Shown here piece by piece: positions 1 to 15,218 of a DNA stretch of 15,218 nucleotides. Location of the stretch: the NCBI GenBank assembly GCA_938018155.1, contig CALIIG010000255.1, positions 1-15,218 of the forward strand. The letters run 5' to 3'. The notes under the pieces were generated by a model. It was not told where the DNA came from. It was given only the letters and a program-made list of their open reading frames with translations, and searched no databases. The stretch is from an uncultured Prevotella sp. Lineage in GTDB: Bacteria; Bacteroidota; Bacteroidia; Bacteroidales; Bacteroidaceae. Position 1 is the stretch's first letter, and every line of letters starts with the position of its first letter. Both the position numbers and the translations under genes were made by a program.

Positions 1-2
1 CG

Positions 3-2597: not shown

Positions 2598-2671
2598 TAT
2601 GATAGTTCGGACGGAAATATCTGCGATTGGTTTTGCGGTTCCCGGATAAATAAGAAAGAAGCATTCAGTTC

Positions 2672-2700
2672 CCCCTCGGCAGACTGCCGAGGGGAGATTT
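2672..2700 (+). terminator. Hairpin terminator of the fimbrillin gene
   Basis: A perfect 11-bp inverted repeat, CCCCTCGGCAG (2672-2682) and CTGCCGAGGGG (2684-2694), lies 75 bases after the stop codon and is followed by a short ATTT. The stem is strong but the T-run is weak, so termination efficiency is uncertain. Confidence 0.6.
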
Positions 2701-2900
2701 GAAAGCTGCAGATAGAACCGTGAATAAGCTACAAACAGATATTTGTATGTTTTCGCCAGCGTCAATCAAACCGGCAGGCGTACTGAAAAACCGTTGGCTG
2801 GTTTGGATGGCACGGCAGGGGAATTATCCCGCAGAAAGCAGAAAAAACAAGGCTCACGCAAGCCCCCGGAATTTCTCACGGGTTGGAAGAAAATTTCCAA

Positions 2901-3010
2901 CGTGTGAGAAATTTACGGGGAACGTGTGAGAAAAATATTTTTCACGTGTGAGAAATTTTGCTGCGACGTGTGAGAATTTTTCGCCCCATGCGTGAGAAAT
3001 TTTAAAGTCG
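2901..3010. repeat. 22-bp tandem array A (5 units, conserved CGTGTGAGAAATTT core)
   Basis: Copies of the core begin at 2901, 2923, 2945, 2967 and 2989 (the last as TGCGTGAG), exactly 22 bases apart. The first ~14 bases of each unit are conserved (CGTGTGAGAAATTT with small changes) and the remaining ~8 vary. A weakly similar unit precedes at 2879. An inverted copy of the core, AATTTCTCACG, sits at 2870-2880. No open frame is maintained. Function unknown; it could be a protein-binding platform or a replicating intergenic repeat. Confidence 0.85.
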
Positions 3011-3158
3011 TACGTATGCGCCTGACCGCCCGCGGCAGGCGGGCTGATTTTGAGGCTCGCCGGGCAGAACGGGCGGGCTGGCTTCACGGTGCGTTCCGTG
3101 GCAGAATGATAAAAACACGTAAGTTTACAGCTCCCGAATAAAAGAGAGCTGTATGTTC

Positions 3159-3192
3159 AAGCCCCGTCAGCAAGCAGCTGGCGGGGCTTTTG
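3159..3192 (+). terminator. Orphan intrinsic terminator
   Basis: GCCCCG (3161-3166) pairs with CGGGGC (3182-3187). The stem continues as CAGC (3168-3171) with GCTG (3177-3180) across a T/G mismatch, and it is followed by TTTTGTT. It is ~560 bases beyond the stop of the only upstream + strand gene, which already has its own hairpin. It may therefore end an unannotated RNA, or act in reverse for transcription coming leftward from the small ORF at 3659-3841. A second stem (3126-3133 with 3146-3153) lies immediately upstream. Confidence 0.65.
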
Positions 3193-3294
3193 TTGTCGCT
3201 GGTGCAATTCGCTTGCAGCTGGCGAAGCTGTATGCGATTAGAGGGAAGCCATGGGGTGAAGCAGGAAAAAACAATTAAATACGGTTATCTGTTA

Positions 3295-3514
3295 AGTTTC
3301 AAAGCATGAAACTGTGAGTTTTAAAGTATGGAACTATGAGTTTCAAAGTATGAAACCGTGGGTTCCAAAGTATGAAACTATGGGTTTCATAGGATGAAAC
3401 TGTGAGTTTCATAGGGTGGAACTATGGGTTTCATAGGATGAAACTGTTAGTTTCATAAGGTGAAACTGTGGGTTTCATAGGGTGGAACTATAGGTTCTAT
3501 TCTTTGGAATTATT
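3295..3514. repeat. 22-bp tandem array B (10 units, GTTTCAT/ATGAAAC dyads)
   Basis: Ten head-to-tail units start at 3295, 3317, 3339, 3361, 3383, 3405, 3427, 3449, 3471 and 3493 with no indels. The consensus is A/G, then GTTTCAT, AGG, ATGAAAC, then T(A/G)TG. The units at 3383 and 3427 contain the perfect dyad GTTTCAT-AGG-ATGAAAC, and junctions between units form a second dyad (ATGAAAC-TGTGA-GTTTCAT). Half-sites thus alternate about every 10-12 bases, close to one helical turn. The last unit is degenerate. No spacers exist, so this is not a CRISPR. Confidence 0.92.
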
Positions 3515-3658
3515 TAGAAATACGGTTCTATTCATACGTGTAACGGTAGGCTTTCTTCATACGCACAACGGTAGATTTCGCGTGTACTCGTACCAAAGGC
3601 TTTCAGGCCTTCACCCATTCGTTGGGCGGGCTTACAAAAAGAAAGACGAGGGATTCGG

Positions 3659-3841
3659 TCAATCATCACAGGCAAAGCAGGGGAAAATTACGACGCCAGG
3701 CATGGGAAATGATGCCGATGCCAGTGTTAGCCTGCCGGCTTTCGAACCTGTTTTAAACGTGGCCGGCAGGTTACCGCTCTGTGCCAAAAGCGTAAGGATG
3801 CTGCCAAAAAGCGCAGCAAGCGTAAGTAAGGTTTTCTTCAT
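3659..3841 (-). CDS. Possible small secreted peptide (60 aa), or remnant of a larger gene
   Basis: A 60-codon frame starts with an ATG at 3841 and opens with a textbook signal sequence: MKK, then a hydrophobic stretch TLLTLAALFGSILTLLAQ ending in an AQ-type cleavage site. The ~38-residue mature part is unlike anything I recognise and ends FPCFACDD. The frame runs upstream of this ATG, but the upstream part lacks protein-like features. A Bacteroidota promoter fits exactly upstream on the minus strand (TTTG, 19 bases, TGTATTTG near 3870-3900), supporting expression. It is divergent from the M6 protease. It may be a genuine small exported peptide or the 5' end of a decayed gene; I could not find a continuation in other frames. 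Confidence 0.4.
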   Translation of the reverse strand: MKKTLLTLAALFGSILTLLAQSGNLPATFKTGSKAGRLTLASASFPMPGVVIFPCFACDD

Positions 3842-3870
3842 GTTTTGTAATTTTGATGTTGAACAGCGTG

Positions 3871-3905
3871 CTTGCAAATACATTAAATAAAAGTAAAAAT
3901 GCAAA
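3871..3905 (-). promoter_or_regulatory. Promoter of the 60-aa ORF
   Basis: Read on the minus strand, TTTG is followed by exactly 19 bases and then TGTATTTG, one mismatch from the Bacteroidota -7 element TAnnTTTG. It lies about 30-60 bases before the ATG at 3841. Confidence 0.45.
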
Positions 3906-3946
3906 ACGCGCGGCCTTGTAAAACTGCATAAACGCAGAAAATTCAA

Positions 3947-3954
3947 TATTTTTG
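3947..3954 (+). promoter_or_regulatory. Promoter -7 element of the M6 protease gene
   Basis: TATTTTTG is a perfect match to the Bacteroidota -7 consensus TAnnTTTG and lies 42 bases before the start codon at 3997. No clear TTG is found 19-20 bases upstream, so the -33 part is weak. Confidence 0.5.
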
Positions 3955-3996
3955 CAGAAATCATGTTATTATTCGTTTCACCCAACATTGTATAGT

Positions 3997-6225
3997 ATGC
4001 GAAAATATGCTCTTTTTTTTCTTGTTCTTTCATGTCTTGTTTTTCCCTTCGCCGTGCAGGGTCATACCGTATTGAACAATACGGTGGTGTTTGTACGCTT
4101 TGCCGACGAGGCCGAAACAGGCCCGGGTGCCGTGTTCCAAACCCATACGGCCGAACATTACGACAGTCTGTTCAATTCAACCCTGCCCGGATATAACAGC
4201 GTCATCAATTACTTTACGCAGGCATCCTACGGCAAACTCACCTGGGGAAGCCGCCTTTTCCCTGCCCCTGCCGGCAGCAGGGTAATGTCGTTCCGCTCTC
4301 GTATGGAACGCGGATACTATGAAGAGCAAAGCTCTGTCAACCCAACGGGCTACCCTAAAGGCAATGCAACCGTGATGGAGGCGCGCCGGAGCGGACTGGT
4401 CAAAGAGGTAGTGAAGTATCTTGATCAGAATATTCCTGCCGGCTATCAGGTTGATGCCAACAACGACGGCATTGTTGACAACCTTACAATAGTGCTTAGC
4501 GGCACCTCGGCCACAGGCAATACGCACCTGCTCTGGCCCCAGCGTCAGAACTACATTCTGGGCGGTTCCATTCAGGGCAAGCGCGTAGTGAGCTTCCTGA
4601 TGGTGTTTGATGAGAGCAACGGCTTCAGGTTAGGGGCGGCCAATCCCAAAATACCGCTGAATACCGGCGTGCTTTGTCACGAAATGTCACACAACTTAGG
4701 CACCTACGATCTTTACCATAACGCCAAAGACGGACTTAATCCTGTGGGTGTGTGGGACCTGATGTCGGACATACAACCCGTTGCACAGCACATGACAGCC
4801 TATACCAAATGGCGTTACTGTCATTGGCTCGACTCGATACCTTCTATCTCTGCTCCCGGCACCTATACGCTTAATCCCATCGGCGGCAACACCGACGAGA
4901 ACGTGGCTTATAAGATTCAACCCGTAGGCCGGCGCGAATATTTTGTGATAGAATACCGCAAAAAGGAGGGCTTTGATGCCAGTCTGCCCGAATCGGGACT
5001 GATTATTTACCGCATCAATCCCGACCTTACGGGCGGCAATCTGGCCTACAACGGCACCACGCGACTGGACGAACAGTACATTTTCCGTCCCGGCGGCACA
5101 ACTACTTCAGACGGTAATATCAGCGAGGCTGCGTTCAGTTCCGGCAACGGCCGCACCGCTTTCGGAGGCTCTGCAGCCCGCCGGCCCTTTTACAGCGACG
5201 GCACAGAGGCCCATTTTGCCATCGCCAACATATCGGCCGCAGGCCCTGTAATGACCTTCGATTTGCTGGCATCGGCCCACCGTATTGTGCTTAGCCAGAC
5301 GGCTGTAAACCTCGGAGGCCGGGCCGGCAGCGGGGCAACGGTGCTCGTTTCGTCCGACGGCGCGTGGCAGGCATCGGGTGTTCCGGCATGGCTTACGCTG
5401 TCGGCTGCCGAAGGTAACAGCGGCGACACGCAGCTTGTATTGTCTGCACAAACCGACAATACAACGGGTGCGCCCCGTACGGCCGTCGTAACGTTTACCG
5501 ACAAGGCCCATCCCTCGGTAACGGCTACGCTCAGCATTACGCAGAACGTGAAAACAAACGGGAGCGTTGTGCTGTATGAAGATTGGGAGAATACGTCGAA
5601 CCCGAACGGCTGGACCGTCCAAAACAGCGACAGTCGCGGCTGGAATTTAACCCGCACGCTGCAAACCAACCGCGGCCTTTACCGCTCATACGAGGGCACC
5701 CATGCGGCCACACTTATCGAAGCCTGGGACGATGTGCACGAGGAACAAACGCTTGTTTCGCCCGTCTTTGCAAAGGGAAAGACGCTCGAGTTCTGGTCAA
5801 GGACAACGGCTGCCAACAAAAATCCGGCGAACAATCCGCAGTTCTACAATGTGGATGTAAGCAGCGACGGCGGGGCAACATGGACTACACTGTTCAACTG
5901 CCTGACCGATTATCCGCTCGATGCCGACGGGAAGTCGCAGAGTGGCAGGTATGTAAAGCTCACCATTGACCTGTCGGGCCACATGTCCGACAACATGCGC
6001 ATCCGTTTCCACTGCTACGATACGGGCGGCAAAGGGCTGGCATACTTTTGGAATATCGACAATTTGAAGATTGTCGGACTTCCTGCGGGCATCGGCCGAC
6101 TGTCGGCACCCCATGCTGCCCACGATGCCGTCTACACTACCGACGGCCGCTATGCGGGTCGCGATATACAGCAGTTGCCGGCCGGCGTTTACGTAAGGGG
6201 AGGCCGGAAATGGGTTAAAAAATAA
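3997..6225 (+). CDS. Secreted M6-family metalloprotease with BACON, jelly-roll and sorting-like tail
   Basis: The start is the ATG at 3997, because it opens directly on a signal peptide (MRKYALFFLVLSCLVF, cleavage near VQG); an upstream in-frame ATG at 3952 would bury it and overlaps the promoter. The product is 742 aa. The catalytic domain has the zinc site HEMSH at 228-232, continued as NLGTYDLY, the M6/immune-inhibitor-A pattern, and a Met-turn WDLMS with Met 256. Residues ~430-517 (IVLSQTAVNL to SITQN) match a BACON domain. Residues ~523-697 form a MAM/cleaved-adhesin-like jelly roll (DWEN, LEFWSR, FWNIDNLKIVG). The last ~35 residues (DGRYAGRDI, LPAGVYVRGG) resemble short C-terminal sorting signals of type IX secretion in Prevotella. 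It probably acts outside the cell on proteins or glycoproteins; the substrate is unknown. It appears monocistronic. Confidence 0.88.
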   Translation: MRKYALFFLVLSCLVFPFAVQGHTVLNNTVVFVRFADEAETGPGAVFQTHTAEHYDSLFNSTLPGYNSVINYFTQASYGKLTWGSRLFPAPAGSRVMSFRSRMERGYYEEQSSVNPTGYPKGNATVMEARRSGLVKEVVKYLDQNIPAGYQVDANNDGIVDNLTIVLSGTSATGNTHLLWPQRQNYILGGSIQGKRVVSFLMVFDESNGFRLGAANPKIPLNTGVLCHEMSHNLGTYDLYHNAKDGLNPVGVWDLMSDIQPVAQHMTAYTKWRYCHWLDSIPSISAPGTYTLNPIGGNTDENVAYKIQPVGRREYFVIEYRKKEGFDASLPESGLIIYRINPDLTGGNLAYNGTTRLDEQYIFRPGGTTTSDGNISEAAFSSGNGRTAFGGSAARRPFYSDGTEAHFAIANISAAGPVMTFDLLASAHRIVLSQTAVNLGGRAGSGATVLVSSDGAWQASGVPAWLTLSAAEGNSGDTQLVLSAQTDNTTGAPRTAVVTFTDKAHPSVTATLSITQNVKTNGSVVLYEDWENTSNPNGWTVQNSDSRGWNLTRTLQTNRGLYRSYEGTHAATLIEAWDDVHEEQTLVSPVFAKGKTLEFWSRTTAANKNPANNPQFYNVDVSSDGGATWTTLFNCLTDYPLDADGKSQSGRYVKLTIDLSGHMSDNMRIRFHCYDTGGKGLAYFWNIDNLKIVGLPAGIGRLSAPHAAHDAVYTTDGRYAGRDIQQLPAGVYVRGGRKWVKK

Positions 6226-6233
6226 CATCTGAC

Positions 6234-6280
6234 GGCTGTATGCAATTTGCAAAACAGCCTGCTGGGTGCAGGCGTTGTTG
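6234..6280 (+). terminator. Candidate terminator of the M6 protease gene
   Basis: Two overlapping hairpins are possible: GGCTGT (6234-6239) with ACAGCC (6254-6259), with TGCAA/TTGCA inside, or GCCTGC (6257-6262) with GCAGGC (6268-6273), followed by GTTGTTG. Neither has a clean T-run. The 187-base gap to the convergent reductase gene holds nothing else I can support. Confidence 0.35.
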
Positions 6281-6412
6281 CACGTGTGGTGGCTGCCGCA
6301 GCGTTGTTCTATGGTGCCTCTATGACCTCAATCAGATTTAGCACCATGTTTGGCTCTTGCTTTGCATGTTTTTACAACATAATAGGTGCGCAAGGCAAAA
6401 ACGCAACAGCCT

Positions 6413-7138
6413 TTAAAACAGCCGCAAACGTCTCCAAATCCAATTCGGAATAAGGCTCCACACGAAAGTTAATATGCACCAACGTGTATCAATAACACAA
6501 ATATGCTTACGTTTTCTGATTGCTTTCACGATGCTTCGAGCCACCGTTTCGGCCGTCATCAGCATTGGATATTTCTTTTCGCCTGTAAGCAAAGGCGTAT
6601 CGACAAAGCCGGGACGAATATCGGTAAACCGAATATTGAGCTTCTGAGCATTGGCTAATTGTTCCAGAGCCTGCAAATAAGTGTTTTGCATGGCTTTCGT
6701 AGCACTGTAGCTTGGAGCAGGGCCAAGGCCTTTCGTTCCTGCAATAGACGTGATGCAAGCTATATGTCCACCGCCGTTAGCCACAAAATAACGATAAGCC
6801 GCGCCCACCATTCTCGTGAACCCCACAGCGTTGGTTTGCATCGTCTTCATTTCCTTGTCGGCCTCCAAAGTAATATTAGTCCAGCCTATGCCTGCTGCGT
6901 GAAAATACAGGTCAATGCCACCCATGCGCTCTATAAGCTGCAACAATGAGGTATCGGCATCGTCGGCTGTCATGTCAATTTGTGCTGTGAACACACGCTC
7001 GGGTGCATGGTTTTGCAATTCGGCAAGTGGCCCAACACGTCGTGCAGCCATACCAACTGTCCACCCTTGAGCAATCAACAACCGTGCCACCTCGTAACCA
7101 ATGCCACTGCTGGCACCTATAATAACCGCTCTTTTCAT
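6413..7138 (-). CDS. Short-chain dehydrogenase/reductase with hydrophobic C-terminus
   Basis: The 241-residue product is a classical SDR: a Rossmann nucleotide motif GASSGIG at 8-14, HAAG (the NNAG equivalent) at 80-83, Asn 103, Ser 131 in ITSIAG, and Tyr 144/Lys 148 in YSATK, so the catalytic tetrad is complete. An AARR after the second strand (31-34) suggests NADP(H), by family convention. PGFVDTPL (176-183) matches the usual loop after the active site. The last ~25 residues (WCILTFVWSLIPNWIW and a basic RRLR) are strongly hydrophobic, as in SDRs tethered to the membrane. The substrate is unknown. The gene stands alone, convergent with the protease and divergent from the TonB receptor. No strong promoter was identified; TAAATTTA just upstream is only a near match. 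Confidence 0.85.
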   Translation of the reverse strand: MKRAVIIGASSGIGYEVARLLIAQGWTVGMAARRVGPLAELQNHAPERVFTAQIDMTADDADTSLLQLIERMGGIDLYFHAAGIGWTNITLEADKEMKTMQTNAVGFTRMVGAAYRYFVANGGGHIACITSIAGTKGLGPAPSYSATKAMQNTYLQALEQLANAQKLNIRFTDIRPGFVDTPLLTGEKKYPMLMTAETVARSIVKAIRKRKHICVIDTRWCILTFVWSLIPNWIWRRLRLF

Positions 7139-7416
7139 GTTTATACGTCGTTTAAATTTAGCGTGAGTTCAACAAGTTTTAGCCGTTGAAAACATGGGTT
7201 TCGTACAAATTTTACCGCTGCTCTATGGCGTATGCGCCTTACTGCCTGCAAAATAGCACCCCTGTCTTCAGTGCATAAAGTTACTGAAATATTTTATACG
7301 AAAGCCCGTTCTGCCTGCCTTTTAATGCTCTGCAGTACGAAAATGCCGACCTCCGACCAAGGAACGGTATAGGGTTTACAGCATTACGTCATGGAAAATA
7401 AGGCAGAAAGTGACAG

Positions 7417-7480
7417 AATACCTAATGTAAGGTATTGGCCGATTTACTGATATTTAGGTATTGTTATCTTTTTAGGTGTT
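7417..7480. promoter_or_regulatory. Candidate operator: AGGTATT half-sites
   Basis: AATACCT (7417-7423) and AGGTATT (7430-7436) form a perfect dyad with a 6-base centre. The half-site recurs as AGGTATT at 7456-7462 and AGGTGTT at 7474-7480, overlapping the -33 and -7 promoter area, and ACCT of the -7 box forms a further inverted half. The arrangement fits a transcription-factor site controlling the receptor operon; the factor is unknown. Confidence 0.5.
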
Positions 7481-7491
7481 TTTTACCTTTG
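7461..7491 (+). promoter_or_regulatory. Promoter of the TonB receptor operon
   Basis: TTG (7461-7463), 20 bases, then TACCTTTG (7484-7491): an excellent Bacteroidota primary-sigma promoter. Transcription would begin around 7497, leaving a leader of about 110 bases before the ATG. Confidence 0.75.
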
Positions 7492-7515
7492 CATTATAAT
7501 TTAAACTATACGTTT

Positions 7516-7584
7516 GAGGGGTCTTGTCAACTTTATGAAAACATATTGTTTACAAGCGGTTACAACTATTTGAAAAGACCTCTT
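7516..7584 (+). other. Structured 5' leader of the TonB receptor mRNA
   Basis: GAGGGGTCTT (7516-7525) can pair with AAGACCTCTT (7575-7584) with two G-U pairs, enclosing ~50 bases. A competing short stem is CTTGT (7523-7527) with ACAAG (7552-7556). The leader is too short for a cobalamin riboswitch and I recognise no known class; it may influence translation or stability. Confidence 0.35.
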
Positions 7585-7606
7585 CCGTACAAACAATAAA
7601 CACTTT

Positions 7607-10009
7607 ATGTATATTCAAAGTACAGAAAAAAATATATCATTATTTAAAAAAATAATATTGTTATTACTGAATCAAAAGAGAGAATTTTATCTAACAATTC
7701 TATCGTTTTTCTTTACGCTTTCAGTTTCGGCGCAACAAGCTGTTGTTTATGGCACGGTAACCGATTTTCAAACAGGTGAGCCACTTGTAGGAGTTTTGAT
7801 AAAAGCCGACAGAACAAACGCCCGTACCGTCACCAATAATGAAGGATTTTATCGTCTTGTTTTGTCGGGTAGGCAGCGTGTCCAGTTAAATTTCCAGTGT
7901 ATAGGATATAAGGAACACACACAAAGTGTTACGTTACAGGACAGCCTGCGTTACGATGTGCAACTTACGTCAGCCGAGCAAGTTCTGAAGGAAGTTACGG
8001 TAACGGCTCATAGTGAGATGCGTAAGCTTAAAGAAGCAGCTATGCCTGTCTCTGTCATAGGGCAGCAACAGCTACAGGGAACAGCTTCAAACATGAATGA
8101 TGTACTCGCACGTACGGTTGGTGTTACGGTTCGAAATACGGGCGGAATGGGCAGTGCTTCGCGCATATCAGTGCGTGGTTTGGAAGGAAAAAGAATGGGA
8201 ATGTTTGTAGATGAAACCCCATTGTCACAGCTAAATAACTTTATTGCTCTGAACGATATTCCAACAAACATGATTGAACGCATCGAAGTGTATAAAGGTA
8301 TTGTTCCATATAAGTTTGGTGGTTCTGCATTGGGTGGTGCCGTAAATGTTGTTACAAAGGAGTATCCTCCCGTTTATTTAGACTTTGCTTATGAGGTTGG
8401 TTCGTTTAATACACATCAGTTTTCAACGGTGTTTAAGCGTACGAACCGTAAGAGCGGCTTGCAGTTTGGAATAGGTGGCACGTTTTCGTTTTCGAAAAAT
8501 AATTACGAAATGACATTGGCAAACCTTGATAACCGAACTGTGAAAAGAGACCATGACCTGTTCAATAAGGTTATTGGCGGTATGTCAGTAAAAGCTACTA
8601 AATGGTGGTTTGATGAAATAAAGTGGGAGCTTGTTTTCATGAAGACGCACCAAGAGATACAAGGAATTGACCTCGATATTCGTGAAGCGTACAACCGTTC
8701 TGTAAACTATGTTACTGAATTATCGCTGAAGCGTAATAATTTCTTTTTAGACGGACTTGATTTTGACTTTGATATTAACTATGTGTTTGGCAAATATGGC
8801 ATGCACGATAAGGCGATGAATCGTTATGATTGGGACGGAAATAAACTTCCACCTGTTTCTTCTTATGGTGGCGAACAGAACAATTTTCCTTCTGATGGCA
8901 ATAATAGGTTAAACGAGTTAATATCAAAACTCAATCTGCAATACACGATTGATATGCATCATAGTGTAAACTTCAATGCTTATTTTGATCATAATTCGCT
9001 CCATCCTAAAGATACATTGATGGACAAAGCATTAGGTTTTCGTTCTAATTTCCCCAGCAAGATGAATACGCTAACGCTGGGTCTTTCGTACGATTTGACC
9101 CTATTCAACGGACGGTTTCAAAATGCTTTTACGTTGAAAAACTTTATTTTCTCGTCCGATTCGCGTAGTATCAACATCTTTTCTGTAACTGAACCTGAGC
9201 GTGTAAAAGTGTTCAAATCGTATTTTGGCTTCAGTAACGCCGCACGTTATAAGTTTACACCCGACCTGATGATTAAAGCTTCGTTCAATGCAGAGGTACG
9301 AATTCCTTCAAGTGAAGAGCTGATAGGTAATGGCTATTCTATATTAGCTTCTCCTGCGTTAAAGCCTGAACGAACAAAAGGTGTGAACGTAGGCATGCTC
9401 TATCGACATTTAAAAGCTGACAACGGACTGATTGAGGTGGAGTTGAATACCTTTTATAACCTGTTGGAAGATATGATACGTTTCACCCCCGATATGATAC
9501 CGACAATGGCACGATACCGCAATTTTGGTAGTGTGCGCACGCAAGGAATAGAGCTGGAAGCTAAAGGCGATGTATGCCCCGTTCTGTATTTATATGCCAA
9601 CGGAACCTTTCAAGACCTTAGAGACGTACGAAAGTTAACACCCGGAACAGTGGTTGAAAATCCTACTTATAAAATGCGAATCCCCAATGTTCCTTATCTG
9701 CTTGGTAATTTCGGTGCAGAATTTCATAAGGAGAATATCTTTGGTGGGAGCGGACAAAACACACGTTTACTTTTCGATGCTTCGTACATACATCAGTATT
9801 TTTACGACTTTGAGGTGAGTCGATATCAAGAACGCAAAATTCCGACATCGTTTACAATGGATGCCGCTGTGGAACATAGCTTCGGCAATGATAAGTGGAC
9901 GCTTACCCTAAAGGTGAAGAATTTAACCAACCGCCATGTCGTTTCCGAATTGAACCGACCGTTACCAGGGCGTTACATAGGCTTTAAAGTGCGCTATCTT
10001 TTCAGATAA
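7607..10009 (+). CDS. TonB-dependent outer-membrane receptor (siderophore/heme/metal type)
   Basis: An 800-residue protein. A long N-region precedes the signal core (about 26-43: EFYLTILSFFFTLSVSAQ); no later ATG exists before the cleavage site, so the ATG at 7607 is kept although a TTG start near 7659 is possible. Residues ~46-121 are a carboxypeptidase-regulatory-like domain (VYGTVTDFQTGEPLVGV), ~136-250 the plug (SRISVRGLEGKRMGMFVDETPL in two parts, IERIEVYKGIVPYKFGGSALGGAVNVV), and the remainder the 22-strand barrel, ending VRYLFR. It lacks the length (~1000 aa) of SusC-type glycan receptors, so uptake of a chelated metal or small cofactor is more likely. With the lipoprotein 35 bases downstream it resembles XusA/XusB of Bacteroides. 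Base composition is more AT-rich than in the flanking genes, possibly reflecting transfer. Confidence 0.88.
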   Translation: MYIQSTEKNISLFKKIILLLLNQKREFYLTILSFFFTLSVSAQQAVVYGTVTDFQTGEPLVGVLIKADRTNARTVTNNEGFYRLVLSGRQRVQLNFQCIGYKEHTQSVTLQDSLRYDVQLTSAEQVLKEVTVTAHSEMRKLKEAAMPVSVIGQQQLQGTASNMNDVLARTVGVTVRNTGGMGSASRISVRGLEGKRMGMFVDETPLSQLNNFIALNDIPTNMIERIEVYKGIVPYKFGGSALGGAVNVVTKEYPPVYLDFAYEVGSFNTHQFSTVFKRTNRKSGLQFGIGGTFSFSKNNYEMTLANLDNRTVKRDHDLFNKVIGGMSVKATKWWFDEIKWELVFMKTHQEIQGIDLDIREAYNRSVNYVTELSLKRNNFFLDGLDFDFDINYVFGKYGMHDKAMNRYDWDGNKLPPVSSYGGEQNNFPSDGNNRLNELISKLNLQYTIDMHHSVNFNAYFDHNSLHPKDTLMDKALGFRSNFPSKMNTLTLGLSYDLTLFNGRFQNAFTLKNFIFSSDSRSINIFSVTEPERVKVFKSYFGFSNAARYKFTPDLMIKASFNAEVRIPSSEELIGNGYSILASPALKPERTKGVNVGMLYRHLKADNGLIEVELNTFYNLLEDMIRFTPDMIPTMARYRNFGSVRTQGIELEAKGDVCPVLYLYANGTFQDLRDVRKLTPGTVVENPTYKMRIPNVPYLLGNFGAEFHKENIFGGSGQNTRLLFDASYIHQYFYDFEVSRYQERKIPTSFTMDAAVEHSFGNDKWTLTLKVKNLTNRHVVSELNRPLPGRYIGFKVRYLFR

Positions 10010-10044
10010 ATATTAATAAATGTATGATTAAAAATAAAAGAACA

Positions 10045-11292
10045 ATGAAAAAGTTTAAATCAGTTTTATCTATTATCGCCTTAACGGCTTTAATGGTATC
10101 ATGTGACGGAAACAATGACAATCCCACACCAAACCCTAATCCCAACCCCAGCGGAAAGGAATTTAAAGGCGTTATTTTCGCAACAGGCATTACCAACCCC
10201 GAAGGCAATAATGGTAGCGTTTATATGCAGACTCTGAGCGATTTGCTCCCTGGCAACTATGATATTAAGAATGGTATTCCTGTAGGATTTGGCTCTACGC
10301 CTATTGTTACTGAAGCAGGCAGCGTATATGCTCTTCCTGATTATATGGGTAATACAAAGGCTGAGGTTACGCGTTATAAAATTAACGCTGACGGTATATG
10401 GGCTAAGCAAGGCGTGTTACCTATCCCGGCCAATGCTGCGGCCAGCAATGTGGTAGAACTCAATGCCGAAAAAGCATATCTTAGTTTGCAAGGATTAGGC
10501 ATCGTAATGGTATTTAACCCTACCACAATGAAAAAGATTGCTGATATTGATCTTAACAGTTTGCATCAGCAAAACACAAATGTGTCGCCCGCTTCAATGA
10601 TTATCCGTGATGGCAAACTGTTTGTAGGTCTTAACCAAATGAACGCACAGTATATGCCTACACGCAACAATATTGAACTGGCTATGATTGACACGAAGAC
10701 AGATAAGGTTGAAAAGCATATTGTTAATACCTCATTAGGACTGTGCTTTGCAACACGTCCTATTGACCCAGGTTCTATATTCATGGACGAAAATAAGGAT
10801 ATTTATATCAACTGTATTGGCTCGTTCGGCTTTATTCCGGGCTTGAACGGTGGCATCGTTCGAATTAAAAATGGTTCAACTGATATTGATACTGATTATT
10901 GTATTCGTCTTGACCAAACTACAGTTGCAGGGCTGTCAACAACACATGCTGATTTTTTGAGCACCATATTCTATGCTGGTAAGGGAATGGCTTATGCGTA
11001 TGCCACCTCGTTTGGCCTCGATCCCAACGGAATGAGCAACCCTTATGTCAGTCTTACAAATGTGCCAGTTGTAATTGATTTGAAACAGAAGAGCATGTCG
11101 GTTATACAGGGAATGGAAATTTCTAATCCACAAGGAGTTGCTATTGGCAAACATAAGAACCTCATTGTATTTGGAAGTGCAAACAAAAAGGCGGTTGGTT
11201 TCTACACCTATAACCCTGAAACCAAAGAGGTTGCAGGGCCTGTTATGCAGGTGAAAGGTAACCCAAGCTTCTTCCATAGCTTTGCGAAATAG
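10045..11292 (+). CDS. Surface lipoprotein, XusB/DUF4374-like predicted beta-propeller
   Basis: The start chosen is the ATG at 10045 (MKKFKSVLSIIALTALMVSC) rather than 10024, because it gives a normal lipoprotein signal with Cys 20. The acidic DGNND just after the Cys fits a Bacteroidota surface-export signal. A low-complexity PTPNPNPNPSG linker follows, encoded by a short CCNAAY repeat. The ~380-residue body has repeated strand-rich segments (VIFATGIT, SVYALPDYMG, AYLSLQGLGIVMVFN, KLFVGLNQMN, DIYINCIGSFGF), typical of a beta-propeller. It recalls DUF4374 proteins such as XusB, which binds siderophores next to the TonB receptor XusA; assignment is by resemblance and context only. No PepSY-type third gene (XusC) follows: a terminator stands 13 bases after the stop. 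Confidence 0.7.
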   Translation: MKKFKSVLSIIALTALMVSCDGNNDNPTPNPNPNPSGKEFKGVIFATGITNPEGNNGSVYMQTLSDLLPGNYDIKNGIPVGFGSTPIVTEAGSVYALPDYMGNTKAEVTRYKINADGIWAKQGVLPIPANAAASNVVELNAEKAYLSLQGLGIVMVFNPTTMKKIADIDLNSLHQQNTNVSPASMIIRDGKLFVGLNQMNAQYMPTRNNIELAMIDTKTDKVEKHIVNTSLGLCFATRPIDPGSIFMDENKDIYINCIGSFGFIPGLNGGIVRIKNGSTDIDTDYCIRLDQTTVAGLSTTHADFLSTIFYAGKGMAYAYATSFGLDPNGMSNPYVSLTNVPVVIDLKQKSMSVIQGMEISNPQGVAIGKHKNLIVFGSANKKAVGFYTYNPETKEVAGPVMQVKGNPSFFHSFAK

Positions 11293-11304
11293 TAAAAAAA
11301 ACAA

Positions 11305-11353
11305 TCGTAACCATGCTCTTTCATGTATGATAGGCATGGTTACGACATTTTTT
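11305..11353 (+). terminator. Terminator of the receptor/lipoprotein operon
   Basis: TCGTAACCATGC (11305-11316) and GCATGGTTACGA (11334-11345) make a perfect 12-bp stem with a 17-base loop, followed by C and ATTTTTTAT. It begins 13 bases after the stop codon. Confidence 0.9.
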
Positions 11354-11730
11354 ATAAATGTTGTTTATTGTTTCGGTTTTATCTTTGGAAATCAACAAGG
11401 CTCGTAAATATAAAACATTTCTGTTTACAAACGCTATTGTTGGTTACATTCATCAGGTATAAAAAACCGGCATAAGTGACAAAAAGAGACCTAAAATGGG
11501 TCTCTTTTTGTCACTTATGCCGGAAATTGTTTATCTATATCAAGTGCATCATCACGCCTGCTTTATACAAATAATTTAAAGGTGCATCATCAAGAAAATA
11601 TATTCTTTCCGTCTTCCTCTCCTCTCCATGTCGCCTCCCTCTTCTTGTCCCTTCGCCCATTAAATTTTGTCTTTTTGTCTTTCTGTCTTCACCAATCCGT
11701 CTTCCTGTCCTCAATTTTCTGTCGTCGCCA
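11354..11730. other. Convergent intergenic region with polypyrimidine stretch
   Basis: Beyond the two terminators, no gene is supported. The word GTGCATCATCA occurs at 11544-11554 and 11582-11592. Bases ~11603-11725 are almost all pyrimidine on the + strand with GTCTT at 11611, 11669, 11677, 11685 and 11699, so the 3' untranslated region of the response-regulator mRNA would be purine-rich (GAAGAC-like). TATCTTTG at 11380-11387 matches a -7 box, but its TTG is only 16 bases upstream. Confidence 0.6.
11467..11523 (-). terminator. Perfect 25-bp hairpin, bidirectional terminator
   Basis: Arms at 11467-11491 and 11499-11523 are exact reverse complements (starting CCGGCATAAGTGAC and ending GTCACTTATGCCGG), with a 7-base loop. 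On the minus strand it is followed by TTTTTTATA, making it a strong terminator for the HMA-kinase-regulator operon. The inner A5/T5 part could also stop + strand transcripts. The 25-bp stem is longer than needed for termination. Confidence 0.88.
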
Positions 11731-12480
11731 CTACTTCTTGCGGTCGAAAAGATCGGGAACGCGCGTAATAAGTTTGAACTTATCCTTAAGGAAATCGGCA
11801 ATTTCGGCACCGTAATTCCGGCCTACCGGTATCTCTTCGTCGCGCCCTGCGAGCTTAATACTCTGGCGGGTATAATGCTCAATTTTGGCCACCGACACCA
11901 GATAGCTGCGGTGAACACGTATAAATTCCTTTGCGGGAAGCATTTCATTTATCTTCTTTAAGCTGATTTGGGAGATGAGATTTGAGCCGTCCAGGAGGTG
12001 CAGTTTAACGTAATTGTCCATCGATTCAATATAAATAATCGAGTCGATTGATACGTTAACGTTCTTGTATTCCACCTTCAGGGTGATGACACGCTCGGGC
12101 CGTTGCGTGAGCTGTACGGTTTTGCGCATTTTAATTCTTTGTGCAACCTTGTCGACAGCCTTGACAAAACGCTGGTAGAAAAAAGGCTTGTGCAGGAAGT
12201 CGACCGCGTTAACGTCGTAGCTGTCCAGGGCATATTGTGCGTAGGCCGTGGTGAAAATAAGGCACACCGTGGGCGGTAACTCGCGGGCAATCTCGAGGCC
12301 TGTCATGCCGTTCATTTCAATATCGAGGAACACAATGTCGGGTTTCTCTTCTATAATTTTCTGCAACCCTATACGCGGATTGGTGTAAGTTTCGAGGGTT
12401 ATGCCCCCCATTCGGTCGCAATAGTTCCTGATAATGCTCAGGGCTACCGGCTCGTCGTCTATGGCTATAGAGTGGAACAT
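11731..12480 (-). CDS. LytTR-family response regulator
   Basis: A 249-residue protein. The receiver domain (1-~115) has Asp 8/Asp 9, phospho-acceptor Asp 53 in VFLDIEMNGMTG, Thr 77 and Lys 98 in HKPF, all expected residues. The LytTR DNA-binding domain (~130-235) has VRVHRSYLVS-type residues (FIRVHRSYLVS at 186-196) and a YIESMDNYVKLHL segment. It should be phosphorylated by the kinase encoded immediately upstream and bind direct repeats at promoters. The stop TAG is at 11731 and a purine-rich 3' tail runs to the hairpin at 11467-11523. The 46-base gap from the kinase contains an attenuator-like hairpin, so regulator dose may be set separately from kinase dose. Confidence 0.93.
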   Translation of the reverse strand: MFHSIAIDDEPVALSIIRNYCDRMGGITLETYTNPRIGLQKIIEEKPDIVFLDIEMNGMTGLEIARELPPTVCLIFTTAYAQYALDSYDVNAVDFLHKPFFYQRFVKAVDKVAQRIKMRKTVQLTQRPERVITLKVEYKNVNVSIDSIIYIESMDNYVKLHLLDGSNLISQISLKKINEMLPAKEFIRVHRSYLVSVAKIEHYTRQSIKLAGRDEEIPVGRNYGAEIADFLKDKFKLITRVPDLFDRKK

Positions 12481-12510
12481 GATTTAAAAGTAAAAAATAA
12501 AAAAGTAAAT

Positions 12511-12544
12511 ATTAAGGTAAGCGTCTTCAGACACTTACCTTAAT
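12511..12544 (-). terminator. Attenuator-like hairpin between kinase and regulator
   Basis: ATTAAGGTAAG (12511-12521) pairs with CTTACCTTAAT (12534-12544), extended by GTC/GAC (12523-12525, 12530-12532) across one mismatch, loop TTCA. On the transcribed minus strand it is followed by ATTTACTTTTTTATTTTTTAC, a U-rich tract. It overlaps the kinase stop codon (12527-12529), so it could cause partial termination before the regulator gene, with kinase translation melting the stem. Confidence 0.6.
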
Positions 12545-13531
12545 ACTCAGCTTTACCGTAAATCCGTCCTTGTCCTGACGGCGGCGGAGGGTGTAGTTAT
12601 CGGGATAAAGCAGGTCGAGGCGGTGGCGTAAGTTGTCGAGACCGCTGCCTGACGATACCTTAACGGCGTTGTTGATATGCGAGTTGTGCACCGTGAAGTG
12701 GAGTACGCGGCGGCGTGCCGTGAGGTCGATGTCGATGCTGCTGTCGTCGGTCGACGATATGCCGTACTTGAAAGCATTCTCTACAAGCGTTATCAAAAGC
12801 ATGGGAGCGATGCCCATGTGCGGGTCGTCGACCTCGAAATGCTTGTTTACACGTGTGGTGTCGCCGATGCGAAGCAGTTGCAAATCAATGTATTGTTGCA
12901 GATAATCCATCTCTTCTTGCAGACTGATGAAATCGCGGTTGGCGTTGTTGTACGTGTATTTCATCATGTTAATAAACTGTTCAAACGCCTCCTCGCGCTT
13001 GTCCGAGTCGGTTAATATCAGTCCGTAGAGCGTGTTTAATGTATTGAAAAGGAAGTGCGGATTGATTTGAGCCTTGTACATTGCCAGCTCAGCCTTGTCG
13101 CGTTGAGCCTCCATTTCCTCGCGCTGACGGGCCAGACGGCCGGCCTCCTGCAGCATGTTGTTGAAGAAACTATACCCTAAAATGACGAGAAAAAGGAACC
13201 AGACGGTAGAGTAGATGTGCGTTGTGCGCGGTGCTTCACCGGGAAATTCGTAGAGGTTCAGCCAGTCGGCCAGTCGCGAAAATGCTGCTGTTACGCCCAG
13301 AGCCATGGCCGAAAGCAGCGTTCCGCGCACGTAATGGTGGCGGATAAACAGCCCGGGGATGTTATAACGCGTCAATACAACGAAGCACAAAACGAGGTAA
13401 CCCATGATAGACACAAGCAGCACGGGACGCGTTTCGGCCCATTTTACCGTGGGCACCAGGAGCGTAAGCACGGGAATGAATACCAGAAAGAAGAACAGAC
13501 TGGTATAGAGATTCAGTTTCTTTTCAGTCAT
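12527..13531 (-). CDS. LytS-type membrane sensor histidine kinase
   Basis: A 334-residue protein with four predicted membrane segments (about 9-27, 36-54, 70-86, 106-124) separated by short loops, so there is little periplasmic sensing surface. A coiled linker (127-152, rich in R, E, Q) leads to the His_kinase domain: phospho-acceptor His 159 in AQINPHFLFNTLN, followed by a HATPase-like domain with the N-box TLVENAFKYG (Asn 252) and a G-box SSGSGLDNLRHRL (near 293-305). This is the PF06580 kind that pairs with LytTR regulators, and the regulator is the next gene. It begins 12 bases after the HMA gene stop, so the three genes are co-transcribed. The signal is unknown; short-loop topology suggests a membrane-embedded or protein partner cue, possibly the HMA protein. 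Confidence 0.93.
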   Translation of the reverse strand: MTEKKLNLYTSLFFFLVFIPVLTLLVPTVKWAETRPVLLVSIMGYLVLCFVVLTRYNIPGLFIRHHYVRGTLLSAMALGVTAAFSRLADWLNLYEFPGEAPRTTHIYSTVWFLFLVILGYSFFNNMLQEAGRLARQREEMEAQRDKAELAMYKAQINPHFLFNTLNTLYGLILTDSDKREEAFEQFINMMKYTYNNANRDFISLQEEMDYLQQYIDLQLLRIGDTTRVNKHFEVDDPHMGIAPMLLITLVENAFKYGISSTDDSSIDIDLTARRRVLHFTVHNSHINNAVKVSSGSGLDNLRHRLDLLYPDNYTLRRRQDKDGFTVKLSIKVSV

Positions 13532-13543
13532 TTTGCCGAACGT

Positions 13544-14236
13544 TTATTTTATTTTCCGGCGCAGCTTGTCTTCCGAAGTTGTGTCCTTAAAATAGGTAAT
13601 GGCCATTTTTCGTGTCGCGGGATTGATGCAAACATCCTCTACACCGTCGAAGGCGGTGGCGTCGTCGGCCAGCGTTTTCAGGTTTTTGCCACGTGGAATA
13701 TTGAATATAACGTAGCCCACCTTGTCGCTGGTGTAATAGTTTGATGGCGTAAATCCCGCATTGATAAGAAGTTTTTTGATGTCGTTCTTGCTGATGCGGT
13801 TGGCGTCGTAGCGGATAAAGAGGTAGCGACGGTCTGTGTGAGGCGCGAGCGAATCGATGCCTTCGTGTCCGCTCAACGCTGCAACGGCCCTGCGTGCAGA
13901 GGCACTGTCGGTTAGTTCCATGTGCTGTCCTGTTCCCCTTCTGATGACATCGGTTGTGCTATACGGTGTCATGTTGTAACGTTGCCCCGCAAAAGGTGCC
14001 TTAATCGAATCGGGATTGGTTAGCGACGGGTCGTAACTGATGGTAGCTGTACGCCGTTCAAGGTTAAACCAGATGTCGTCGACGCCGCGAATTTCCATTG
14101 CGCGCGTCATCACCTTATGTGCGCATTCGTCACACCGCATTCCCTTAATGCAGACGGTTAGCGTGTCTAATGTTACGGCCCGGCTTTGTAATATACCGGT
14201 TAGTACAATGATGATGGTGATAGAAATTTTCCTCAT
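13544..14236 (-). CDS. Exported protein with three tandem HMA-like folds, only the first with CxxC
   Basis: The start is the ATG at 14236 (MRKISITIIIVLTGILQSRA, a signal peptide), giving 230 aa. In-frame starts further upstream (TTG 14269) fall in the promoter -7 box. Residues ~24-88 are a heavy-metal-associated domain with the metal motif GMRCDECAHKV (Cys 35 and Cys 38). Residues ~105-168 and ~172-230 look like two further HMA-type ferredoxin folds, with helix and strand patterns kept (SARRAVAALSG.. RYLFIRYD; LKTLADDATAFDGVEDVCIN.. KMAITYF), but the CxxC pairs are absent. It is probably periplasmic and may bind Cu, Zn or another soft metal at the first domain. As first gene of an operon with a kinase and regulator, a sensing or accessory role is inferred. 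HMA proteins next to LytS/LytTR pairs are not a described pathway that I can name. Confidence 0.8.
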   Translation of the reverse strand: MRKISITIIIVLTGILQSRAVTLDTLTVCIKGMRCDECAHKVMTRAMEIRGVDDIWFNLERRTATISYDPSLTNPDSIKAPFAGQRYNMTPYSTTDVIRRGTGQHMELTDSASARRAVAALSGHEGIDSLAPHTDRRYLFIRYDANRISKNDIKKLLINAGFTPSNYYTSDKVGYVIFNIPRGKNLKTLADDATAFDGVEDVCINPATRKMAITYFKDTTSEDKLRRKIK

Positions 14237-14266
14237 GATGATGTCCATTAAGAATGAAATACGATG

Positions 14267-14296
14267 CAAAGTTACGCAAAAATAACGTTACTACAA
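14267..14296 (-). promoter_or_regulatory. Promoter of the HMA-kinase-regulator operon
   Basis: On the minus strand TTG (14296-14294), exactly 19 bases, then TAACTTTG (14274-14267): an ideal Bacteroidota promoter. Transcription would start near 14260, giving a ~25-base leader before the ATG at 14236 and excluding the TTG start at 14269. Confidence 0.8.
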
Positions 14297-14347
14297 TGCT
14301 GCCGGTACCCCGTGAAAATTCAATTTACCTACTATTTGTGAACCTTC

Positions 14348-14502
14348 GCGTTGCGTTTACGGCACTATCGCGTTGTGTTTACGGTGTAAAGGCGTTGCCA
14401 TTACATCGTAAACGGGGGTGCGTTTACGGTGTAAACGGGTTGCCTTTACGGTGTAATTGAGTTGCCATTACGCCGTAAAGCCAACGTAATTACGCCGTAA
14501 TG
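14348..14502. repeat. 22-bp tandem array C (7 units, TTTAC/GTAAA dyads)
   Basis: Units begin at 14348, 14370, 14392, 14415, 14437, 14459 and 14481; the only indel is one extra G at 14414. Most begin G(C/G)GTTG and carry a dyad TTTAC-GGT-GTAAA or TTAC-GCC-GTAA with a 3-base centre. The array ends ~52 bases before the -33 element of the HMA operon promoter (array is upstream). Degenerate units may continue rightward. No spacers and no coding frame. Confidence 0.9.
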
Positions 14503-14566
14503 GCAGGGTAACAAGGGTGTTGTTATATGACCTGTAAATCAGTGTGTTACAAGTTTACCAAAGCTG

Positions 14567-14623
14567 ATTACGGCACAATGGCCCTTTAAATGGGCCGTAA
14601 TGCCATATACATTACGGCACAAT
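14567..14623. repeat. Outlying ATTACGGC/GCCGTAAT repeats
   Basis: ATTACGGCACAAT occurs at 14567-14579 and 14611-14623, exactly 44 bases (two 22-bp periods) apart, with the inverted word GCCGTAAT at 14594-14601 between them; either copy can pair with it in an 8-bp stem. GGCCC (14580-14584) with GGGCC (14592-14596) is a competing stem. The words resemble the half-sites of array C, so this may be its decayed extension. Confidence 0.65.
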
Positions 14624-14803
14624 TGCAAACCGTTTAGCCCGAAATGGTTTTTTAAAGGTAAAAAAGCAAAAAGGTAAAGGGCAGGCTTAAGGAATAAAAT
14701 GGTACGTAAAAGGGAGAAGAGGGTAGCAGAAAAGGGAACAAAGAGGGGAGGAGGAGGGTGGTTTTGCAGCACGATGATTTTGTTCGGGGAAGGCTTTTAC
14801 AGA

Positions 14804-14853
14804 ATAATAAAAAAAGGCGGAGGGCTATTCCCTATGACGGGAAAGCTCTCCGC
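14804..14853 (-). terminator. Terminator of the GH3 gene
   Basis: On the minus strand GCGGAGAGCT pairs with AGCCCTCCGC (G-U allowed; arms at 14817-14826 and 14844-14853), with an inner CCC/GGG, followed by CTTTTTTTATTATTC. It is a strong intrinsic terminator ~70 bases past the GH3 stop codon. Confidence 0.85.
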
Positions 14854-14925
14854 GGTTGACAATAGCAATAAAATGTATTGGTTATCCTGAAACCATCTTC
14901 TCCATTTTAAGGACTGTCAATATCG

Positions 14926-15218
14926 TTATTTCAGCGTAAAGCCGGCCGTTTGCGTGTCACGACTGTTGGGCCCTACCATGATCTGGAACTCGCCCGGCTC
15001 GCAAACATACTGCAGTTCGCTGTTATAGAATTTCAGCTTATCGGCTGTAATGGTGAACGTTACATCCCTGGTTTCGCCGGCACGCAGGCTGATTCGGGCA
15101 AAGTCCTTAAGCTCTTTTACAGGGCGTGCTATCGATGCGGCCACGTCGCGCAGGTATAATTGCACAACCTCGTCGGCGTCGCGGCTGCCCATATTGGTAA
15201 CGGGCACGGTAACTTTAA
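14926..15218 (-). CDS. GH3 glycoside hydrolase, C-terminal Fn3-like domain (5' partial)
   Basis: The 97 codons present run off the window edge (frame continues KVTVPVTN before the first possible GTG). They match the fibronectin-III-like domain that ends GH3 beta-glucosidases and beta-xylosidases: VTNMGSRDADEVVQLYLRD, then ARPVKELKDFARISLRAGET, VTFTITADKLKFYN and EPGEFQIMVGPNS. The catalytic (beta/alpha)8 and alpha/beta sandwich domains lie outside the window, so substrate specificity cannot be read. Stop TAA at 14926; terminator follows. Confidence 0.9.
   Translation of the reverse strand, partial: KVTVPVTNMGSRDADEVVQLYLRDVAASIARPVKELKDFARISLRAGETRDVTFTITADKLKFYNSELQYVCEPGEFQIMVGPNSRDTQTAGFTLK

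Follow-up and report, generated by a model that had tools for sequence, protein, structure and literature searches.

Intergenic repeat arrays of unlike sequence share a 22-bp geometry in sampled Prevotella genomes

Plasmid iterons and LytTR-type sites are repeats set about two helical turns apart, on which proteins bind cooperatively on one face of the DNA. Repeats dispersed between genes are known from Prevotella itself and from Porphyromonas gingivalis, which belongs to the same bacterial order. PINSR, as characterized in the main text of its report, is a 188-bp dispersed intergenic repeat of Prevotella intermedia, counted at 177 copies in one strain and 184 in another; it was judged non-coding, was confined to one clade, had no terminal inverted repeats and showed some rearrangements between copies, and its function was left open by the authors (PMC4755523). 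BrickBuilt of P. gingivalis is described in its main text as a miniature inverted-repeat transposable element (MITE) that contains a minisatellite with a 23-nt unit and is present 19 times in one strain (Klein et al. 2015, PMC4596501). Repetitive extragenic palindromic sequences and bacterial interspersed mosaic elements (REP/BIME) are, in the portions of the literature consulted, palindromic, extragenic, high in copy number and regularly spaced in alternating orientation, and they are reported to bind several proteins (PMC12306157, PMC3733652). Here, we report on three tandem arrays, A, B and C, in a 15,218-bp stretch of DNA from an uncultured Prevotella sp. (NCBI GenBank assembly GCA_938018155.1, contig CALIIG010000255.1, positions 1 to 15,218 of the forward strand; the whole stretch is called the window), and on arrays in related genomes, which are unlike in sequence and share one geometry with a period of 22 bp. 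Our searches of the open-access literature listed no description of such a 22-bp lattice, subscription papers being mostly outside their coverage, and the main text of one survey (PMC4060949) contains neither 'Prevotella' nor '22 bp'.

Array A (2901..3010, + strand) consists of five direct 22-bp units with the motif (A)CGTGTGAGAAATTT, array B (3295..3514, no strand assigned) of 10 units without a slip, the last of them degenerate, and array C (14348..14502, no strand assigned) of seven units with one 1-bp slip and the dyads TTTACGGTGTAAA and ATTACGCCGTAAT. Tandem Repeats Finder (TRF) returned period 22 for all three, and together with rows of 22 bases it confirmed the positions and unit numbers reported in an initial annotation of this DNA; TRF assigned 9% indels to array A, yet all five copies of its motif keep a single register. 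The array sequences differ, as that annotation also held, with no obvious sequence in common when the units of A, B and C were compared. At least 30 of 44 bp matching was taken to define a cluster, and of all lags from 10 to 43, only lag 22 produced clusters in the window, three in number; since 100 dinucleotide shuffles of the window gave no cluster at any of the 31 lags from 13 to 43, a chance origin of the arrays was rejected. Compared with column shuffles, dyad symmetry was significant in B (p = 0.007) and C (p = 0.003) and not in A (p = 0.163), and array A, with no significant dyad, may differ in kind from the other two. One dyad per unit with a 3-base centre had been claimed for B and C, and this describes array C, where the dyad is TTTAC-GGT-GTAAA (TTACGNCGTAA with at most one mismatch at 14379, 14401, 14424, 14446, 14468 and 14490), and also the units of B of type GTTTCAT-AGG-ATGAAAC, but the remaining units of B are better written as 6-5-6, with half-sites GTTTCA and TGAAAC, a 5-bp centre and a 5-bp spacer. 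Array B matches itself at 41 of 44 positions at lag 44 versus 38 of 44 at lag 22, which indicates a dimeric higher order. Within the window, GTTTCA-N5-TGAAAC, TTTACGGNGTAAA and ACGTGTGAGAAA, with up to one mismatch, are confined to the arrays.

The period was then counted in sampled stretches of related genomes (handles G for genomes, L for loci), chosen regardless of arrays. The sets called genus, family, order and phylum were drawn around G002, and members of the family set may belong to the genus. The genus sample comprised 91 loci, 1,150,736 bp and 13 genomes; the family and phylum samples were 10 contig starts and 200 kb each; and the order sample of 338 kb, made up of 12 contig starts and 29 short loci that adjoin the S7 gene, was poorer in gaps than random sequence. 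The lag census used the 30/44 threshold and omitted eight loci picked by the array B pattern (L117-L124) as well as L003-L006, L027 and L081, while 29/44 applied to the other array analyses; clusters with a triplet entropy of 3.2 or less were dropped from the census and from the dyad, position, conservation and neighbour-change analyses, and these last four (position at lag 22 only) also excluded any array in which the best of lags 2 to 11 was within 0.05 of lag 22.

Lag 22 yielded 44 clusters in the genus sample, the other lags from 13 to 43 yielded 0-11 (six at lag 21, one at lag 23), and lag 44, the harmonic of 22, yielded 35. At least one lag-22 cluster was present in 11 of the 13 genus genomes, none being found in G027 (60 kb) and G004 (40 kb), and the family sample held five, whereas the order and phylum samples held none in 338 kb and 200 kb, where about 13 and about 8 would be expected at the genus rate. 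A spectrum of tandem inverted arms over 754 kb peaked at the same period, with arm distances of 9, 11 and 13 and 49 clusters; other periods from 12 to 43 gave 2-29 clusters, and the 338-kb outgroup gave two. TRF ranked 22 first among the periods of 8 out of 11 genomes, the exceptions being G027, G004 and G050. The exact two-unit pattern of array B occurred in 5 of 398 genus genomes (control, 1 of 398), and that of array C in none of 151 family genomes. The initial annotation had proposed a period distribution as a test of its idea, and the distribution shows a strong 22-bp peak in the genus stretches and none in the order and phylum samples, so that phasing without shared sequence is real. In these samples, one geometry extends genus-wide among repeats unrelated in sequence, and the common 22-base spacing in related genomes hints that something in the cell reads it.

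Regarding the unit itself, 32 of 51 arrays had a dyad at p < 0.05 against column shuffles. In the 23 odd-centred arrays among 33 dyad arrays, the dyad centre had an identity of 0.42 between neighbouring units, positions 3-7 bp away from it 0.73-0.83 and positions 10-11 bp away 0.48-0.50. The 10 even-centred arrays gave a noisier profile, in which the centre reached 0.63, the positions at 1-5 bp 0.73-0.83 and those farther out 0.50-0.71. Because identity is concentrated 3-7 bp from the dyad centre, the unit is read as two inverted half-sites: typically, 22 bp hold two such half-sites of about 6 bp, and their step of about 11 bp places them on one helix face. The half-site letters vary by family, with GTTTCA and TTACG in the window, GCGATA in G002, TTACCAC in G001, GTTGG in G042 and TTTTGC in G047.

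The TTTTGC family forms the core of a dispersed element. TTTTGC-N3-GCAAAA occurs in 228 copies in G047, 29 in G004 and 0-4 in 11 others, and 460 kb of G047 contained 47 elements with at least two dyads (up to two mismatches), with 117 of 120 successive dyads exactly 22 bp apart. Forty-three copies could be aligned over about 200 bp, including conserved AT-rich flanks, and the consensus fold is closed by an imperfect terminal inverted repeat. In the first dyad, the half-sites carry 1.6-2.0 bits and the centre 0.5-1.0; the first four positions of the spacer carry 0.6-1.3 bits and the last three (CGC) 1.5-2.0; and the third dyad is less clean (half-sites 1.0-2.0, centre 0.8-1.8 bits), the second having served as the search anchor, which makes its score uninformative. 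The longer pattern TTTTGC-N3-GCAAAA-N6-CTTTT was found in 47 of 398 genus genomes, often as a single copy (reversed control, 3 of 398, once each), and at 36-114 copies per strand in G047, G012, G439, G378 and G397. In eight further species, at loci picked by the TTTTGC pattern, the lattice was seen with mostly other spacers: the lattice of G397 is PINSR-like, and G425 and G137 have one common type. Copies with common flanking sequence were clear in G378 and G444, weaker in G397 and not evident in G439. The initial annotation's alternative of a repeat family expanded by a common mechanism gains support here, as in several genomes the arrays are the cores of dispersed repeats.

Three side observations concern these elements. 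The spacers of the G047 element fall into two main types, CCTACGC and SAGCCGC, in a few combinations (L143-L145, L197-L216). A second G047 lattice (L144:17047-17122) and an array of G408 (L153:3084-3162) have a common tail, AAATAAATATTTTTC, in the TRF consensus, and the rest of the unit differs. The G047 elements are also slightly more evenly spaced than random (coefficient of variation 0.76 vs 0.92, standard deviation 0.09; 0.027 of simulations as low), a value from 94 positions taken from the first places listed, with near neighbours dropped by hand, from which nothing was concluded.

From its published description rather than its consensus, the G047 element is very probably PINSR. Like PINSR, it is intergenic and about 200 bp long, with 228 exact dyads genome-wide and 47 elements in 460 kb, and the turnover and possible recombination in relatives (see below) parallel the rearrangements reported in the main text of PMC4755523. 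That main text contains neither '22-bp' nor 'stem-loop' and describes no half-sites, and it reports no terminal inverted repeats, in contrast to the imperfect one in the G047 consensus fold. The window contains no match to the dyad TTTTGC-N3-GCAAAA at up to one mismatch. BrickBuilt resembles the present arrays in that its tandem repeats lie between genes, within a dispersed element bounded by small inverted repeats, but has a period of 23 and one sequence family, whereas the window arrays have period 22; 'palindrom' and 'hairpin' are absent from its main text (PMC4596501). With REP/BIME, as far as the consulted parts of PMC12306157 and PMC3733652 go, the arrays share palindromic, extragenic sequence in alternating orientation, but they keep a strict 22-bp step, and of the REP tags, GTAG is absent from A, B and C, and CGTC occurs once in A and not in B or C. 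Iterons and LytTR-type sites have one sequence per replicon or regulon, whereas the sequence of the lattice varies by locus and species and the arrays are spread over chromosomes.

Genes were called with our own simple codon-usage caller. Of 48 arrays in the window and the sampled genomes, 45 are intergenic, at 83.5% coding: 27 lie in tandem gaps, 10 in convergent gaps, 5 in divergent gaps and 3 beside a contig end, and the other 3 are genic; gaps of at least 150 bp number 136 tandem, 71 divergent and 62 convergent overall. Promoter control of single genes fits poorly with this distribution, and a role in topology, insulation or simply tolerated insertion fits better. By gene pair, the G047 element occupies 17 of 36 convergent, 8 of 35 divergent and 21 of 257 tandem pairs, the last including operons; this count of all gene pairs replaces an enrichment among gaps of at least 200 bp, which was set aside because it is confounded by the element's own length.

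Turnover was compared along one 20-kb stretch of G047 carrying five elements. G397 is 96% identical to G047 in a match that runs through the element at 1089; in G012, the element in the 1089 gap has the opposite orientation; and G378, at 76% flank identity, has a lattice with spacers of its own where the G047 element at 8587 sits and none at 1089. Near L209:1089, the alignment of L254 (G012) with L209 (G047) stops at the inverted element, as would be expected from recombination between inverted copies. Alignment at the empty G397 gaps was too diverged to place the element ends. These differences in presence and orientation indicate that elements come and go and may recombine.

We favour, with moderate confidence, the view that these are dispersed intergenic repeats built on a helically phased lattice that would be read by one or more dimeric proteins, the binding step being deduced from sequence. 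Arrays A, B and C would be members of a lineage-specific intergenic repeat class across Prevotella, with a core of half-sites of about 6 bp in alternating orientation every 11 bp or so (22 bp per inverted pair). Such a lattice could act as a cooperative platform for a dimeric DNA-binding protein, that is, a nucleoid, topology or transposition factor, and if the specificity of this protein differs between lineages, the half-sites would change while the phasing is kept. The elements may multiply in the manner of MITEs or BIMEs, as non-autonomous repeats, and accumulate where neighbouring genes converge. Selection for phasing, as on a multi-site binding platform, had been suggested initially, and this suggestion is partly sustained: phasing without shared sequence is real and half-sites roughly 11 bp apart fit a platform, but array A shows no significant dyad.

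Several points weigh against a lattice read by a dimeric protein. No lattice-binding protein was identified, and 19 of the 51 arrays, array A included, lack a significant dyad. The conservation profile is partly circular and somewhat inflated, because the dyad centres were picked from the same data. Some of the 44 lag-22 clusters are same-family copies within one genome (G047, G002, G037), so that they do not represent 44 independent families, and copying within genomes could alone account for common half-sites; the loci of the eight further species, moreover, were selected by the half-site pattern itself. The excess of convergent over divergent pairs is modest (Fisher p = 0.047). The elements are not fixed: those at 15935 and 19013 in the G047 stretch have no counterpart in G397, so that duplications lost elsewhere, the second outcome that the initial annotation had named as refuting its idea, were partly seen, at these two orthologous gaps, and in G444 and G439 no TTTTGC lattice adjoined the blocks examined. 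Finally, in 31 of 43 G047 copies, six or more of the seven positions of spacer 1 match the reverse complement of spacer 3, and on each strand the element gave better folds than its shuffles did (z = -3.7 and -4.8, from 20 copies each); pairing may therefore matter in the G047 element, and a long hairpin is possible.

It is because of this spacer complementarity and these fold scores that a structural explanation is retained, as possible but doubtful: the arrays would act by folding, as RNA or single-stranded DNA, into tandem or long hairpins, with the length of stem plus loop setting 22, and might be transcript ends, small RNAs or transposition intermediates. Dyads in most arrays and the higher number of copies in convergent gaps, as for terminators, agree with it. 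A hairpin, however, needs no common period in unrelated families, and the changes between units are mostly of the wrong kind. Over 563 paired positions in neighbouring units, 113 of 126 changes were one-sided and 13 two-sided (8.6 expected), and among the latter 7 were compensatory (2.9 expected), 4 of them from array L067. In B and C, the scored pairs showed 13 one-sided changes and no two-sided ones, so that compensatory substitution in the half-sites, which the initial annotation had proposed to look for, is rare between neighbouring units and finds no support. That one-sided changes predominate speaks for half-site letters being recognised rather than for selection on pairing, and it is the letters, not pairing alone, that recur across units and loci, one half-site being amplified in several species. 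No window feature reached an Rfam gathering score: 13 matches with E up to 1 all fell short, by which a known RNA family was rejected.

It is unlikely that the arrays are selfish or neutral MITE-like elements and minisatellites that serve no function in the cell and in which 22 is a by-product of array building by the elements or their transposase, or of slippage, though several observations agree with it. The G047 elements are dispersed, about 200 bp long and closed by an imperfect terminal inverted repeat in the consensus fold; they are present or absent between species; their preference for convergent gaps may reflect places that tolerate insertion; and BrickBuilt, described as a 23-bp minisatellite within a MITE in its main text (PMC4596501), is a precedent. 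A 10-bp direct repeat, AAATACGGTT, also flanks array B on the left (3277..3286, + strand) and on the right (3518..3527, + strand); although it was looked for post hoc, flank repeats of at least 10 bp arose in only 4 of 2000 shuffled flanks, and the pair is a possible target duplication. Slippage, on the other hand, would scatter the periods, whereas lags 21 and 23 gave 6 and 1 clusters versus 44, and for unrelated sequences to have one period, a shared reader or builder is still needed. Nor was any transposase identified: the Y1 (RAYT) transposase, present in 8 of 13 genomes, had no match in G047, G001, G016, G054 and G408, all of which bear lag-22 arrays, and RAYT mobilisation as a general cause is unsupported. 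Intrinsic curvature from phased A-tracts, with 22 bp as two turns, is very improbable as the common cause, for although the G047 half-site places TTTT/AAAA every 11 bp on alternating strands, A/T runs of at least four number five in A, one in B and none in C, and the GCGATA and ATTACCAC half-site families have, by eye, none in their consensus.

In the window, arrays A and B occupy one common 1354-bp gap, which two + strand genes flank, one on each side. The gap with array C measures 656 bp and is upstream of a gene that encodes a heavy-metal-associated (HMA) domain protein. An inverted copy of the array A motif, AATTTCTCACGGGTTGGA, was read from the sequence at 2870..2887 (- strand). The C motif continues sparsely over 14567..14623 (no strand assigned), where ATTACGGCACAAT stands at 14567 and 14611, 44 bp apart, with GCCGTAAT, inverted, between them at 14594-14601. 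Just downstream of B, TCATACG-NNN-AACGGTAG was seen by eye twice, 25 bp apart (3532-3574). Between convergent genes, a 27-bp hairpin with a 3-base loop (11467-11523; the segment 11441-11550 folds at -49.2 kcal/mol) is likely a bidirectional terminator, and the Rfam matches there were all under their gathering scores. A LytTR response regulator and its histidine kinase are encoded near array C (11731-13531); LytTR proteins bind direct repeats about two turns apart, so that direct repeats of the array A kind are candidate sites. Relatives of this kinase were found, in one contig scan, in two uncultured Prevotella genomes, RUG541 (69% protein identity) and RUG137 (68%), and 22-bp arrays are present at both loci.

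If the phased lattice is indeed bound by a dimeric protein, it may, as a tentative extension drawn from the sequences, be a fast-evolving counterpart of satellite DNA and its binding proteins, in which a putative dimeric protein family reads a half-site every 11 bp, lineages have switched the half-site and kept the geometry, and the lattice has been re-seeded at more than 100 intergenic sites in some genomes as a means of organising or insulating the chromosome, particularly where genes converge. Descriptions of dispersed bacterial repeats usually treat a single sequence family, whereas here unlike families from across a genus have the same geometry, which points to a reader or builder common to them and provides a concrete way to find that factor. 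If this is true, PINSR would take its place in a wider class of repeats, and repeat architecture could be tied, in a way open to testing, to how the chromosome is organised in a genus common in the gut, the rumen and the mouth.

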